From: Stenotrophomonas maltophilia
GTDB taxonomy: Bacteria; Pseudomonadota; Gammaproteobacteria; Xanthomonadales; Xanthomonadaceae
Direction: 5' to 3'
Assembly: GCF_006970445.1 (NCBI RefSeq)
Contig: NZ_CP033877.1
Location: 2,054,750-2,118,749, forward strand
Length of the DNA: 64,000 nt
The notes beneath the pieces were generated by a model that had not been told where the DNA came from, did no database searches, and saw only the letters and a list, made by a program, of their open reading frames with translations. The position numbers and the translations under genes were made by a program. This document shows positions 4,097-47,752 of this stretch, piece by piece (the stretch's first letter is position 1; every line of letters begins with the position of its first letter).

Positions 4097-4879
4097 ATGA
4101 TGCGCAGCGAAAGTGAACGCAAGGAACTCGGCGGCTTCCTCAAGGCCTGCCGCGCCCGTGTCGACCCCGCCACGCTCGGCCTCCCGGCCGGACGCCGGCG
4201 TACCCCGGGCCTGAAGCGCGAGGAAGTCGCACTGGCGATCGGCGTCAGCGTCAGCTGGTACACCTGGATCGAGCAGGGCCGTGAAGTGCGCGCCTCGCCT
4301 GAAGTGCTGGAGCGGCTCGCACAGGTGCTGCGCATGAGCGACGACGAACGCGCCTATGCATTCGCGCTGTCCGGCTACGGCGTGCCGCTGGAATCGCCGG
4401 ACGAGAGCGTGACCGACGGCCTGCGACAGCTGGTCGAAGCGATGCAGCCGATCCCGGCCTATGTGCGCAACACCCGCTTCGACATCCTGGCCTGGAACCC
4501 GGCCATCGCCGATCTGTTCGTGGACTACAGCCAGCTGGCGCCGCATGAGCGCAACACGCTGCGGCTGATGTTCCTGTACCCGCCGTACCGCACGCTGATC
4601 CTCAACTGGGAAGAGATGACCCGCGGCCTGCTGGCAGGCTTCCGCGCGGCGATGGCGCAGGCGCCGGACAAGGCGCCGTTCCAGGCGCTGGCGGAGGACA
4701 TCGCCGCCCACAGCGAGGAGTTCCGCCAGTGGTGGCCGGAGCACGACGTGCGCCGGTTCGATGAAGGTGCGAAGAAGCTGAACCATCCCACGCGCGGGTT
4801 GCTGGACCTGCAGTACGTGGCGCTGGTGCCGGAGAGCCGGCATGACCTTTCCCTGGTGACCTACCTGCCGCGTAGGTAG
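4097..4879 (+). CDS. XRE-family regulator with MmyB-like ligand domain
   Basis: 260 residues. Residues ~8-85 form a helix-turn-helix (ELGGFLKACRARVDP; GLKREEVALAIGVSVSWYTW IEQG). Residues ~105-255 fit the MmyB-like PAS-type domain (AYVRNTRFDILAWNPAI, ALAEDIAAHSEEFRQWW, HPTRGLLDLQY). Members bind an unknown small molecule, possibly a fatty acid, and usually regulate a neighbouring dehydrogenase or reductase gene. No such gene is divergent here; the nearest downstream enzyme gene is the aldehyde dehydrogenase at 5543, beyond the composite repeat. ATG 4097 and ATG 4100 are both possible starts. Confidence 0.88.
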   Translation: MMRSESERKELGGFLKACRARVDPATLGLPAGRRRTPGLKREEVALAIGVSVSWYTWIEQGREVRASPEVLERLAQVLRMSDDERAYAFALSGYGVPLESPDESVTDGLRQLVEAMQPIPAYVRNTRFDILAWNPAIADLFVDYSQLAPHERNTLRLMFLYPPYRTLILNWEEMTRGLLAGFRAAMAQAPDKAPFQALAEDIAAHSEEFRQWWPEHDVRRFDEGAKKLNHPTRGLLDLQYVALVPESRHDLSLVTYLPRR

Positions 4880-4976
4880 GAGGTTGTTCGGCAGGGCTTG
4901 CAGCCCTGCACCTGCAGACGCCGAAGCGACAGCAACAGCAACAGCAACAGCAACAGCGGACTATCCGAGGGATGGC

Positions 4977-5074
4977 GGGGTGGTGTGGGTTGGCAGGACA
5001 CGCCGTAAACCCGTCCATGGGGGCTCGATGGCGCCATCCATGGCGCCAACGGTCCTGCCAACCCACACCACCCC
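4977..5074 (-). repeat. Long-stem hairpin, conserved-core family (copy 1)
   Basis: Perfect 23-bp arms: 4977-4999 begins GGGGTGGTGTGGGTTGGCAG and its complement is 5052-5074. The ~52-bp core between them contains GGCGCCATCCATGGCGCC. On the minus strand the core reads GCGCCATGGATGGCGCC then ATCGAG, CATGG and TTTACGGCGTGTCC, which aligns with the plus-strand cores of the copies at 5230 and 40247. Confidence 0.75.
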
Positions 5075-5101
5075 ACCTCAGACAGATTTCGCGCGGTTGT
5101 T

Positions 5102-5126
5102 GGTAGGTGTCGACCTTGGTCGACAC
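5102..5126. repeat. SMAG-like unit
   Basis: GGTAGGTGTCGACCTTGGTC then GACAC: a GTAG head and a TGTCGACC/GGTCGACA palindrome, identical to the first half of the pair at 8661-8685. Confidence 0.65.
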
Positions 5127-5152
5127 ATCTGTCAGATATCGAAAGAAATTCC

Positions 5153-5193
5153 GGGGTCAGATCCGTTTTCCTACGGAAAACGGATCTGACCCC
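5153..5193. repeat. GGGGTCAGATCC palindrome, copy 1
   Basis: A 41-bp perfect palindrome: 19-bp arms starting GGGGTCAGATCCGTTTTC around a 3-nt loop (TAC). It is nearly identical to the copy at 40134-40174 and related to those at 44183, 45158 and 47715. Confidence 0.85.
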
Positions 5194-5229
5194 AAGAGTA
5201 TTTCCGACAGATCGCAGGAAACCGTCGAA

Positions 5230-5331
5230 GGCGGGGTGGGTCCGGTTGCGGGGGCGTGAGCGCCATGGATGGCGCGACCGAGGCTACATGGATGTATTCA
5301 CGCCGTCCCCCGCAACCGGACCCACCCCGCC
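5230..5331 (+). repeat. Long-stem hairpin, conserved-core family (copy 2)
   Basis: Perfect 25-bp arms at 5230-5254 (GGCGGGGTGGGTCCGGTTGC then GGGGG) and 5307-5331. The core reads GTGAGCGCCATGGATGGCGC, then GACCGAGGCTACATGGATG and TATTCACG. The stem sequence is unrelated to copy 1, but the core is homologous to it in opposite orientation. Confidence 0.75.
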
Positions 5332-5542
5332 ATCTCATAGGAAACCAGCTCGTGCTGTTGCTTCGGCTGTTGCCGTTGCTTCGGCGGGTGCAGGGCGCAG
5401 CCCTGCCAGGACAAGCCACCCATTCAGGCAGGTAAGTGCAGGTCACAGGATAAGCAGACGCCTTGTTGCCTCCGCCAATCGGGTCCACATTCCTGTGCAG
5501 GAGACGGGCCACCGCCCGTTGTCGAGACAACAGGAGCCCTGC

Positions 5543-39972: not shown

Positions 39973-40078
39973 GGCCGGGTCGGGGTGGGCAGGCAGGACA
40001 CGCCGTGAACCCATCCATGGGGGCTCGATGGCGCCATCCATGGCGCCAACGGTCCTGCCTACCCACCCCGACCCGGCC
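39973..40078 (-). repeat. Long-stem hairpin, conserved-core family (copy 3)
   Basis: 27-bp arms (39973-39999, 40052-40078; one mismatch) starting GGCCGGGTCGGGGTGGGCAG. The core is almost identical to copy 1 at 4977 (ACACGCCGTGAACCCATCCA; GGGGGCTCGATGGCGCCATC), but the stem is completely different. It opens composite locus 2, which fills most of the 810-bp gap between MCP1 and MCP2; no credible gene is present there. Confidence 0.75.
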
Positions 40079-40133: not shown

Positions 40134-40174
40134 GGGGTCAGATCCGTTTTCCTGCGGAAAACGGATCTGACCCC
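40134..40174. repeat. GGGGTCAGATCC palindrome, copy 2
   Basis: A 41-bp perfect palindrome with 19-bp arms (GGGGTCAGATCCGTTTTCC) around TGC. It differs from the copy at 5153 only in the loop. Confidence 0.85.
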
Positions 40175-40246
40175 GGAAGCGACCAGGCTTTTGCTTTTCG
40201 CTCTTTTCTTTTCAATCCGGGGTGGACGTGCACGGAAACTGTCCGT

Positions 40247-40428
40247 GGCCGGGAGGGTGGGTTGCGCAGGGGTGTAAGCGCCATGGGCCCGAGGCATGCC
40301 TCGGGCGGGTTGGCAGGACGCCCAACCCCGGTCTTGCCGTGTGCGCAGGACAGCGCACACGAGCAAGGCGCGCCCGAGCCTACAAGGACGTATTCACGGC
40401 GGCCCCTGCGCAATCCACCCTCCCGGCC
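40247..40428 (+). repeat. Long-stem hairpin with expanded core (copy 4)
   Basis: 26-bp arms at 40247-40272 (GGCCGGGAGGGTGGGTTGCG then CAGGGG) and 40403-40428 (one G-T wobble). The core starts TGTAAGCGCCATGG and ends CGAGCCTACAAGGACGTATTCACGG, as in copy 2. The middle is expanded by three small palindromes: GCCCGAGGCATGCCTCGGGC (from 40288), GGTTGGC..GCCCAACC, and CTTGCCGTGTGCGC..GCGCACACGAGCAAG. Confidence 0.7.
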
Positions 40429-40562
40429 AACCCTCAGCAGCCCAGCTTTTCAAGCGACCCACCCCGAGGGGCTTCGCCGTTGGCTGGACATCCGGATACC
40501 CCGTAAACGAACACGCCCCGGCGCAGGGCCAGGGCGTGTTCGTGGATCAGGTCAGGCAGGCG

Positions 40563-42941
40563 TCAGAACTCCTGCCAGTCTCCGTCGGCCAGTTCGGTGG
40601 CCATCGGGCGACCGCCAGCGGTGCGGCGGGCCGGCGGTGCCACCGGTGCCGGGGCGACCGGCGCAGTGGCTCGCGGGGCCGGGGCGGCGGCGACGCGCGG
40701 GGCGGTGACGACCTCGGCTTCGTCGACCACGAAGATCGACACCGCTTCGCTGAGATGGCCGGCCTGTTCTTCCATTGCACGTGCGGCGGCGGTGGCTTCC
40801 TCCACCAGCGCGGCATTCTGCTGGGTGGTCTCGTCCATCTGCACCACGGTCTGGTTGACCTGCTCGATGCCAGCCGACTGTTCCTGCGAGGCAGCGGAAA
40901 TCTCGGCCATGATGTCGGTCACGCGCTGCACCGAGGCGACGATCTCACCCATGGTCGCGCCGGCCTTGTGCACCAGTGCCGAGCCATCGTTGACCTTGCC
41001 GACCGAGTCGTCGATCAGGCCCTTGATCTCCTTGGCGGCGGCGGCCGAGCGCTGGGCGAGGGTACGCACTTCGCTGGCGACCACGGCGAAACCACGGCCC
41101 TGTTCACCGGCACGCGCGGCTTCCACTGCGGCGTTCAGCGCCAGGATGTTGGTCTGGAAGGCGATGCCGTCGATGACCGAGATGATCTCGGCGATCTTCT
41201 TCGACGAGGCTTCGATGGCCGACATGGTGGTGACCACCTGGCCGACCACGCTGCCGCCCTGCGAGGCGACGCCGTGTGCGCCGATGGCGAGCTGGTTGGC
41301 CTGGCGGGCGTGCTCGGCGTTCTGGCGCACGGTGGAGGTCAGTTCCTCCATCGAAGCAGCGGTTTCTTCCAGGTTGGCGGCCTGCTGCTCGGTGCGGCGC
41401 GACAGGTCGCTGTTGCCCGAGGCGATCTCGCCGGCGGCCGAGCTGATCGCGCGGCTGGACTGCTTGATGCGGGTGACGATCTCGCTCAGCTGCGCGGCGG
41501 TGGCGTTGGCATCGTCACGCATGCGGGCGAACACGCCCTGGTAGTCGCCGTGCATGCGCACGGTCAGGTCGCCCTGCGACAGCGCGGCAAGCAGTCCGGA
41601 GATCTGTTCGATGCTGCCAGCGTTGGCGTCCAGCAGGCCGTTGATCTGCTGGGCCAGCTGCAGGAAGAAGCCTTCCTTGTCGGTGGCGTCGATGCGGCCG
41701 GACAGGTCACCAGCGGCGGCCTGGGCGATCACGCGTGCCACTTCGGCTTCGACCTGCGCTTCCTGGGTGCGGTCGCGCCATTCCACCACGTAGCCGACGG
41801 TGTCGCCGCCTTCGTTGCGGATGGTCGAGACCACCTGGGCGAACTGGGCATCGCCATACTGCATCGGGCGACGGGCGACGCCGTGTGCCTTCAGGTTGCC
41901 CAGCAGGGTCTGGTCCATCTCGCCGCGGTGTTCAAGCACGGTGACCGGCTTGCCGATCAGCGAGGCCTGCGCATCGAAGTCCGGCAGGTCGCGGCGCACG
42001 TCGTCCTGGTACTGGCTCAGGGTCTGCTGCAGGGCGCGGTTGCTGTAGACGATGGTGTTGCTGGTGTCGGTCAGGTACACGCCGGTCGAGCTGTAATCCA
42101 GCGCGGTACGGATGCGCAGGTTCTCGCGGGCGATGGCCTGGTCGGTCTCGATGCGCTCGCGCAGGTCGCGCTGCATGCGCTGCATGGACTGCATCAGTTC
42201 GCCCACTTCGTCCTGGCGGCTGACGTCGATGTGGCCATCGAGCTTGCCGCCGGCGACGTCGTTGGCGACCGAGACGGCGCCACGCACGCTGCCGACCAGG
42301 GCGCGGGCAAACAGCCACACCAGCACCAGGCCGAGCGCGGCGCCGCCCAGTAGGGCGATCACGGTCAGCACGGCCGAGGCGGAGTAAGTGGATTCGGCCT
42401 CTTCGCGCGAGGCGCGGGCGAGGCGGTTGTCTTCGGCGATCAGCGCTTCCAGCGCCGAGGCGGCCTTGCGGTGCTTGGTGCGGGTTTCGCCGACGAAGGT
42501 ATCGATGGCGTCGTCCGGCAGGTCCAGTTCCAGCATCTCGGTGACGCTGTCATAGGAAGCCAGGGCGTCCTTCCATTCCTTGGCGAAGGTGTCGAACAGC
42601 TTCTTCTGCTGCGGGTTGTCGACCAGTGCCGGATAGCCCTTGATCGACTTGTCCATGCTCTCGCGCAGTTCGACGGCCTGCTTGCGTGCATCGGACTTGA
42701 CGTCGTCGCTGGCGCGGATCAACTGCTGGTAGGCGGCATTGCGGTATTCGCCCAGCATGCCGCGCATCTCGCCGGCCATGCGGATGCTCTCCATGCGCGA
42801 ACCGGCCAGTTCGGTGGTGACGTTGTTCAGCGAATGCAGGCCACGATAGGCGACGATGCCCTGCAGCAGCATCACCAGCAGGATGACGCCGAAGGTCAGC
42901 ATCAGCTTCGGCATCAGTTTCAGGTTGTTGATCCACGGCAT
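40563..42941 (-). CDS. Methyl-accepting chemotaxis protein 2 (4HB sensor plus PAS)
   Basis: 792 residues. TM1 ~12-32, a helical periplasmic 4HB-type sensor (~35-185; [16 protein letters not shown]), TM2 ~188-212, HAMP, then a cytoplasmic PAS-like domain (~280-400; [31 protein letters not shown]), a further HAMP-like region and the signalling hairpin [21 protein letters not shown]-terminal DGDWQEF follows an Ala/Pro linker. The intracellular PAS suggests dual input; no heme- or FAD-ligand residue can be assigned by eye. No sigma-28 box was found in the 101 bp upstream, so it may be co-transcribed with the small periplasmic gene. Confidence 0.92.
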
Positions 42942-44163: not shown

Positions 44164-44182
44164 CGGGGAGCGTGCGTGGATG

Positions 44183-44219
44183 GGGTCAGATCCCTTTTCA
44201 GGGAAAAGGGATCTGACCC
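44183..44219. repeat. GGGTCAGATCC palindrome, copy 3
   Basis: Arms GGGTCAGATCCCTTTTC and its complement around a 3-base loop, between the PilZ gene stop and the cheW promoter. Confidence 0.8.
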
Positions 44220-44272
44220 GGCATGCGTTCCAGGGTTGCCGGCCAGCGACCGGCACGACCGGTCGGACGGCC

Positions 44273-45157: not shown

Positions 45158-45197
45158 GGGGTCAGATCCCTTTCCCGCGAGGAAGGGATCTGACCCC
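45158..45197. repeat. GGGGTCAGATCC palindrome, copy 4
   Basis: Arms GGGGTCAGATCCCTTTCC and GGAAGGGATCTGACCCC around CGCGA, starting 7 bp beyond the MCP3 stop. Confidence 0.82.
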
Positions 45198-47590: not shown

Positions 47591-47714
47591 TGGACGCAGA
47601 TCACATTCGGTTGCGTAGGGATGACAGTGCGAAAGTGCTGCAGTGGCGGGGCTTTCGCTTGCGTGAGGTGGTTGCATGCGCAAGCGCTGCAACGACAGAG
47701 TTCACAGAAGGGAT

Positions 47715-47752
47715 GGGTCAGATCCCTTCTCCTTGAAAAGGGATCTGACCCC
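47715..47752. repeat. GGGTCAGATCC palindrome, copy 5
   Basis: Arms GGGTCAGATCCCTTCTC and AAAAGGGATCTGACCCC (one or two mismatches in the inner stem) around CTTG. Confidence 0.8.

Follow-up and report, generated by a model that had tools for sequence, protein, structure and literature searches.

Two hairpin loci in the window

The window, that is the whole stretch of 64,000 nucleotides that was analysed, contains two loci of a common layout, in which a hairpin in minus orientation is followed by a 41-bp palindrome and then by a hairpin in plus orientation. Locus 1 lies downstream of a plus-strand gene at 4097-4879, and its second hairpin is the sense form for read-through from this gene, while the first hairpin of locus 2 is the sense form for read-through from a minus-strand gene ending at 40563 (both genes from our own gene-calling script). 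The shared architecture had been proposed in a sequence-only reading of the window and was borne out by an arm search at both loci. The features are as follows.

4903..4951 with 5348..5396, no strand: imperfect outer arms of locus 1, 73% complementary
4974..5077, minus (sense strand): first hairpin of locus 1, a 26-bp outer stem around a 52-nt two-loop core
5012..5019, minus: CANGGANG loop 2 of the first hairpin of locus 1, reading CATGGACG
5035..5042, minus: CANGGANG loop 1 of the first hairpin of locus 1, reading CATGGATG
5153..5193, no strand: GGGGTCAGATCCG palindrome of 41 bp between the hairpins of locus 1, with 19-nt arms (100%)
5227..5334, plus: second hairpin of locus 1, a 28-bp outer stem around the two-loop core
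5264..5271, plus: CANGGANG loop 1 of the second hairpin of locus 1, reading CATGGATG
5287..5294, plus: CANGGANG loop 2 of the second hairpin of locus 1, reading CATGGATG
39973..40078, minus: first hairpin of locus 2, a 27-bp outer stem around the two-loop core
40012..40019, minus: CANGGANG loop 2 of the first hairpin of locus 2, reading CATGGATG
40035..40042, minus: CANGGANG loop 1 of the first hairpin of locus 2, reading CATGGATG
40134..40174, no strand: second copy of the 41-bp GGGGTCAGATCCG palindrome, at locus 2, arms 100%
40246..40429, plus: second hairpin of locus 2, with a 27-bp stem (40246-40272/40403-40429)
40287..40367, plus: insert Y in loop 1 of the second hairpin of locus 2, made of three palindromes (boundaries and hairpins by eye)
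40383..40390, plus: CANGGANG loop 2 of this expanded copy, reading CAAGGACG

The arms of the first and second hairpins of locus 1 (4974-4999/5052-5077 and 5227-5254/5307-5334) and of the first hairpin of locus 2 (39973-39999/40052-40078) were each found to be 96% complementary with 52 nt between them, and these hairpins matched our structure model with 125.7, 111.2 and 117.5 bits, respectively. The arms of the second hairpin of locus 2 are also 96% complementary and enclose 130 nt; its loop 2 is intact, an insert of ~81 nt stands in place of loop 1, and the model match (L108:2774-2959) amounts to 74.6 bits. The expansion of this core (40247) by three palindromes had been claimed earlier and was recovered by eye. 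Similarly, the outer pair of arms claimed for locus 1 was found in an imperfect form, and consists of a GCAGGGC..GCCCTGC repeat and AGCAAC-type tandem repeats, both of which are common in the flanks of copies.

Copies across the genome

The genome of the window (own genome) is a single contig of 4.55 Mb. The structure model (A2), built from 26 copies, gave at least 147 matches in it at E <= 0.01 among 150 candidates scored, in 96 loci; copy counts throughout are lower bounds, and some match-free genomes may hold weak copies. The loci comprise 51 pairs, 24 single minus and 21 single plus copies. Every one of the 51 pairs is arranged minus then plus, with gaps of 74-265 nt in 50 of them and of 867 nt in one. 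Due to this constant order, read-through from either side would carry one sense hairpin. The element is ~106-108 nt long, and a CTGTC box is present at most ~31 nt from the 5' end of the stem in 111/144 copies.

The aligned set (A3) used for the following comparisons holds the best 150 of 239 matches at E <= 0.001, many of the 239 being antisense duplicates, and it omits some truncated sense copies that rank below antisense rows. Among the 150 there are 146 distinct rows, and removal of two antisense rows left 144 sense copies for analysis.

A two-loop core with the CsrA consensus

The core forms a three-way junction and both of its inner hairpins end in C-ANGGAN-G, the CsrA/RsmA consensus, which is given as A/UCANGGANGU/A in PMC5864733. 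In PMC7652899 the CsrA consensus is described as RUACARGGAUGU, located mostly in loops of six nt, with dimer bridging at distances of 10-63 nt. The copies analysed here carry CANGGANG in hairpin loops, with two sites lying within the same range of 10-63 nt. At least one such motif is present in 144 of the 146 distinct rows and two in 123, and among the 122 two-motif copies the two GGA are 23 nt apart (start to start) in 119 and 22 nt apart in the other 3.

The 52-nt form of the core is found in 119/144 own-genome copies. Loop 2 of these copies reads C117 A119 N G118 G119 A118 N G119 (numbers of copies after each base) and its N positions are free (T70 G36 A13 at the first, C75 T42 G2 at the second); the stem bases flanking it covary, and loop 1 is nearly invariant CATGGATG. 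In an alignment of 48 own-genome cores, 94.8% of the cells are paired and changes on both sides were observed in 20/23 pairs. Covariation in these cores amounts to 0.539 in comparison to 0.168 +/- 0.011 after shuffling (0/500 shuffles), and to at most 0.104 with the partners slid. A tandem G-A pair takes the place of two Watson-Crick pairs in 20/48 cores, and inner hairpin 1 has 5-7 bp.

The retention of the core is explained by its conserved CANGGANG loops and the RNA family described below, both of which the sequence-only reading had overlooked. The motif alone is common, with 61 occurrences on both strands of the window, 7 of them within the two loci. One csrA gene is present in the own genome, and csrA was found in 39/40 of the element-positive genomes searched and in 33/40 genomes without a match; this co-occurrence is weak evidence, since CsrA is nearly universal. 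Counting against the CsrA reading, very stable hairpins may disfavour CsrA binding according to PMC7652899. PMC4679880 deals with other intergenic repeats, for which CsrA binding is judged unlikely. The papers listed for the letters of the core appear unrelated, as judged by title, and no CsrA-binding dispersed repeats are described among the literature matches listed for CsrA/RsmA with repeats or Stenotrophomonas, which does not prove their absence.

Palindromes and loop inserts

The 41-bp palindrome is a separate repeat and a module exchangeable between loci. It had been taken as part of the architecture, which holds for both window loci; as a fixed part of the unit it was rejected, since only 18/51 pair gaps contain one (17 as GGGGTCAGATCC and one as a GGCTCTGACCCC variant). 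Arms of the palindrome were matched 10 times in the window, a number reached in 0/100 shuffles. Palindromes of the GGGGTCAGATCC type were also seen standing alone in the window, away from the hairpins, at 44182-44220, 45158-45197 and 47714-47752, and the pair gaps of L079, L121 and L145 hold other REP-like palindromes too, as exchangeable modules.

By string matches, insert X is present in loop 2 of 9/144 copies and insert Y in loop 1 of 3/144, and insert Y also occurs at loop 1 of copies in other species. Both inserts (~80 nt for Y) were observed in several species, sometimes together in one hairpin; the insert-bearing loci are L108:2774-2959 (window 40287-40367), L238, L241, L262, L188 and L194. 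They look like cassettes aimed at the loops. In the window copy, two of the three palindromes of insert Y end in CAGGA-containing loops (CAGGA at 40314 and 40346), so that this expanded copy may keep or gain candidate CsrA sites.

Distribution and relation to known RNA families

With the full model the element was found in 75/91 genomes of the own genus (a lower bound, with 42 candidates scored per genome), and the absence of a match to this model in the other 16/91, which counts against the CsrA reading, suggests that it is dispensable. With the core model at E <= 1e-4 it was found in 68/369 genomes of the class and in 59/271 genera, the own genus included and often with several copies per genome, both numbers being lower bounds with 13 candidates scored per genome. 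We compared 29 copies from 28 other genomes, which are best-scoring loci and so a sample biased towards the model. Both of their loops are of the CANGGANG type, each fixed position showing no more than one exception, and the N positions read T13 G13 A2 C1 and T22 C6 A1 in loop 1, and G18 T10 C1 and T14 C9 G4 A2 in loop 2. Covariation in these copies, in an alignment fitted to the model, is 0.722 in comparison to 0.184 after shuffling (0/500 shuffles). A minus-then-plus pair is also present at L222, from another family.

The closest described RNA is TwoAYGGAY (RF01731, in clan CL00106 with rsmX), a family without an assigned function that likewise combines two such loops with tandem G-A pairs and is predicted in PMC4333381 to bind CsrA. 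At gathering score, no Rfam family matches the window. In the own genome, 8 matches to RF01731 were obtained at E <= 1, the best with 33.3 bits and so below the cut-off of 43, and all 8 coincide with model copies on the same strand. Among 40 element-positive genomes (own included), RF01731 matched at E <= 1 in 14 and over the cut-off in 5, in comparison to 0/14 control genomes. Locus L219, with a score of 44 against the cut-off of 43, has the only TwoAYGGAY match at E <= 0.01 among the 20 loci scanned. The element is homologous to TwoAYGGAY and shares with it an outer stem that holds two hairpins with AYGGAY-type loops, a short AG-containing linker and the tandem G-A pairs that PMC4333381 notes for that family. 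It differs in that T, G or A, and not only Y, occur at the second position of the loop, and in its ~150 dispersed copies, strict minus-then-plus pairing, loop inserts and site-to-site differences in its long stems. As the own-genome scores remain below the gathering cut-off, the element is called a relative and not a member. On sequence and predicted fold, it is a long-stem, dispersed relative of TwoAYGGAY, and for the most part it escapes the Rfam model when the cut-off of that family is applied.

By E-value, the best Rfam match of the window is to Ysr224 (RF02770) at 4946-5055, with E = 9e-7 and 36.5 bits against a cut-off of 70; the others are mostly weak microRNA matches. Ysr224 is a Yersinia sRNA, listed among the most prevalent sRNA families in PMC9029176. 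The core shows homology to it in the window and at L225 and L227, but in all three the match lies on the strand opposite to the GGA loops. Ysr224 appears to represent this very core with the other strand taken as sense; the strand of that family may have been assigned wrongly, or antisense transcripts may exist. Should Ysr224 transcripts really come from the modelled strand, their loops would read UCC, and this counts against the CsrA reading.

The hairpin loops with GGA in CsrA/RsmA consensus context are also a feature of CsrB/CsrC and RsmX/Y/Z. These are sRNA genes with several sites each, whereas the element has two sites per hairpin, spread over ~100 intergenic loci that are often near gene 3' ends.

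Stems within and between copies

The long stems were found to be paired within copies and different between them. At least 20 Watson-Crick pairs are formed in 142/144 own-genome sense copies. Within these 142 copies a mean of 1.18 out of 24 positions is unpaired, whereas the left arms of different copies differ at 10.1 out of 24 and 99 distinct left-arm 24-mers are present. The mean stem score is 47 when both arms come from one copy and 17 when left and right arms of different copies are combined at random (n=1500). Hence the copies do not have one common stem, and arms pair far better within copies. Either opposite result would, by the criterion of the sequence-only reading, have refuted in-place arm generation, so its proposal withstood this check. 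The sequence-only reading had described the stems as unrelated yet self-complementary; the self-pairing is confirmed, but unrelatedness is not the rule, as single-linkage clustering placed 124/144 copies in three clusters (59, 48 and 17 copies, followed by two clusters of 2 and sixteen singletons).

A genome of the same class, G397, has 13 copies with a mean core identity of 96%. Between these copies the stems agree at positions 1-4, show weak similarity at 5-20 and approach the chance level at 21-26; stem identity outward from the core is 1.0, 0.55, 0.54, 0.43 and 0.32, in comparison to expected values of 0.62, 0.37, 0.31, 0.34 and 0.29 in the same bins. Beyond position 8 these stems retain 96-97% internal pairing. 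The G397 copies (L323-L334), with near-identical cores and divergent self-paired stems, form a good system for the study of stem divergence. By eye, the stems of different copies in G173 (L335-L342) look related, with paired changes, and four copies in G316 (L313-L316) have one common stem; these two genomes look like states between full stem sharing and the divergence in G397.

Stem turnover at orthologous sites

At the position of window locus 1, hairpins are present in 18/20 other species, with differing stem and core classes and with loop inserts. At two further sites (30 loci each, own genome included), the stems found at one position are discrete alleles. Pairs of alleles differ either at few or at 5-17 positions, with gaps in the distribution between, and the differences are mostly compensated; the exception among six site sides is L127 left, where in many pairs compensation covers only about half of the large differences. 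The allele stems were compared without gaps, and the L107 values include a one-base register shift between stem classes. Inversions were also observed at orthologous sites. They affect the left hairpin in L286, the right hairpin in L277, and the core in L344 relative to L343, where the neighbouring protein is 95% identical. Such flips, seen at three loci, could be assembly errors at palindromes.

Due to the compensated alleles and the flips, we interpret the stems as being under selection for structure, with template switching and conversion maintaining their pairing. For inverted repeats, template switching is described as giving arm homogenisation and spacer inversion (PMC8604942) and as able to create and maintain RNA hairpins (PMC8794818). 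The element resembles such quasipalindrome correction in both arm homogenisation and spacer inversion, with template switching as the putative agent; unlike the known cases, its target here would be a bacterial RNA element dispersed over a large number of sites. Of the earlier proposal that arms are generated or homogenised in place, the homogenisation is thus supported by stem alleles that differ in both arms and by flipped cores, while de novo generation of arms is not.

The stem alleles may alternatively be other family members, brought in by ectopic conversion or strain transfer with no special process acting on the arms. The difference between species in stem and core class at window locus 1 is in agreement with such copying, as is the bimodal distribution of between-species stem differences, which whole-allele replacement would give. 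However, the L127/L144 alleles are at least 4/24 positions away from the stems at other sites of the own genome, the comparison being made against the own genome only. The flipped cores need an inversion and not plain copying, and ~52/170 of the one-difference pairs are already compensated (from rounded means of pairs that are not independent). Copying of whole alleles as the sole process is possible but rather unlikely.

It is less probable that the arms are made at insertion, by foldback copying of the flank, or that the core inserts into ready-made palindromes. The 13 G397 copies, which share their cores and not their distal stems and yet pair well beyond position 8, are what this would give, but their stem similarity fades with distance from the core, which suits common descent and core-centred conversion, and the three large stem clusters of the own genome also speak against it. 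No clean empty site close enough for comparison was found among the orthologues examined, such as would show the precise insertion with target duplication expected of a MITE. The neighbour-gene loci of one G397 copy (n=4) comprised the same record, one ending inside the right arm and two that were too distant; the latter, distant relatives of the site, have short intergenic gaps in which neither an arm nor a palindrome could be seen (by eye), which is a further point against arms made at insertion.

Which strand folds

Correction of the stems as double-stranded DNA only would give equal numbers of G-T and A-C mismatches on the sense strand. In the first 24 stem positions, 89 G-U and 14 A-C mismatches were counted by copy (p = 2e-14; second alignment, these positions only). 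As 18 of the G-U come from one stem position common to related copies, the counts collapsed by stem cluster are also given (48 vs 13, p = 8e-6). Whole-alignment counts depend on the mismatch score and are 95 vs 16 or 111 vs 38. The same excess of G-U over A-C was observed in other genomes of the class (28 vs 6) and at orthologous sites within the genus (53 vs 10, or 35 vs 10 when collapsed). Further, the fold of the sense strand is the more stable one in 106/133 copies, with 3 equal, and for the stem alone, where the difference exceeds 0.5 kcal/mol, the sense strand is better in 73 and the antisense strand in 12 among 142 copies. The excess of G-U points to a fold formed by one particular strand, for which RNA is the simplest reading; a strand-specific single-stranded DNA intermediate would give the same bias.

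This bias could accordingly be read as a strand-specific hairpin of a DNA-level element, whose folded single strands or cruciforms are handled by an HuH/RAYT-like protein with the loops as protein contacts on DNA. Like REPs, REPINs and BIMEs, including the Stenotrophomonas SMAG repeats (GTAG), the element has many intergenic palindromic copies in inverted pairs; its strict minus-then-plus arrangement resembles REPIN-type units, and its loci are embedded among other REP-like palindromes, in which they are rich. It differs from these repeats in its two-loop core and ~26-bp site-specific stems, and a REP with a RAYT carries a GTAG or CGTC tag on a palindrome of 20-40 bp, which an element of ~106-108 nt does not fit. 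GTAG (or CTAC on the 3' side) was found within ~25-30 nt of the stem in only 9/144 copies. An associated RAYT-type transposase, the search for which the sequence-only reading had suggested, was not found: the own genome has only two Y1_Tnp genes, located 11.7 and 51 kb from the nearest listed copies, and neither is flanked by the element. A RAYT/REPIN origin was rejected on this ground. Orthologues without the hairpin keep part of an arm, so that losses look like imprecise deletions (by eye). Both loops fit an RNA-protein consensus including its free positions, and the related copy L219 passes the threshold of an Rfam RNA family. Taken together, a DNA-level element appears improbable.

Gene context

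The loci lie at a median of 92 nt from a gene 3' end and 166 nt from a gene start, and 32 convergent, 10 divergent and 54 tandem contexts were observed among the 96 loci, in comparison to 14, 42 and 74 among 130 control gaps longer than 100 nt; for the convergent and divergent counts the difference from the controls has p = 6e-7 (all with our own gene caller). Plain 3'-end hairpins, i.e. REP-like mRNA stabilisers or terminators with GGA loops that have no partner, would account for the enriched convergent gaps, the nearby 3' ends, the very stable long stems and a TTTT within 25 nt after the stem in 32/144 copies, but they have little to commend them, as a stabiliser needs no invariant loops, the loops are among the most conserved positions while the stems drift, and TTTTT follows within 25 nt of the stem in 0/144 copies. 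On this last count a Rho-independent terminator was rejected (both counts are of strings and not from a terminator model).

Proposed role of the element

Our analysis suggests that both loci belong to a dispersed structured-RNA element related to TwoAYGGAY, whose hairpins probably bind CsrA when present in read-through transcripts and whose stems are probably kept by selection together with template switching or conversion. On the sense strand, the outer stem of ~26 bp would hold two small hairpins with six-base ANGGAN loops closed by C-G, and two loops 20 nt apart would suit one CsrA dimer bridging both. Read-through transcripts would carry these hairpins in their 3' parts and bind CsrA there. 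Selection at the RNA level, along with template switching or conversion between the arms, would keep the stem paired, so that changes appear in both of its arms, with an occasional flip of the core. The copies together (~270 loops in those analysed) may act as a distributed CsrA sink, and single copies may locally protect or mark a transcript end. Transcription, CsrA binding, an effect on CsrA or on mRNA and the agency of template switching are the predicted parts of this scheme.

More tentatively, a CsrA-titrating RNA may have spread as a genome-wide repeat (~150 copies, ~270 loops), frequently located behind genes and in divergent pairs, with template-switched stems letting each copy evolve its own stem; we consider this conceivable and the less likely outcome. 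The level of free CsrA is set by its titrating RNAs. If the proposal is true, total read-through transcription would set free CsrA, and the copies would document compensatory double changes and spacer inversions as they occur naturally in bacteria. Orthologous compensated alleles and flipped cores make the relative roles of selection, template switching and conversion measurable, and with the element the old question of how long RNA stems remain paired during sequence turnover becomes open to testing. If dispersed copies of the two-site hairpin are present in dozens of genera, free CsrA may depend on a distributed pool that is absent from present models.
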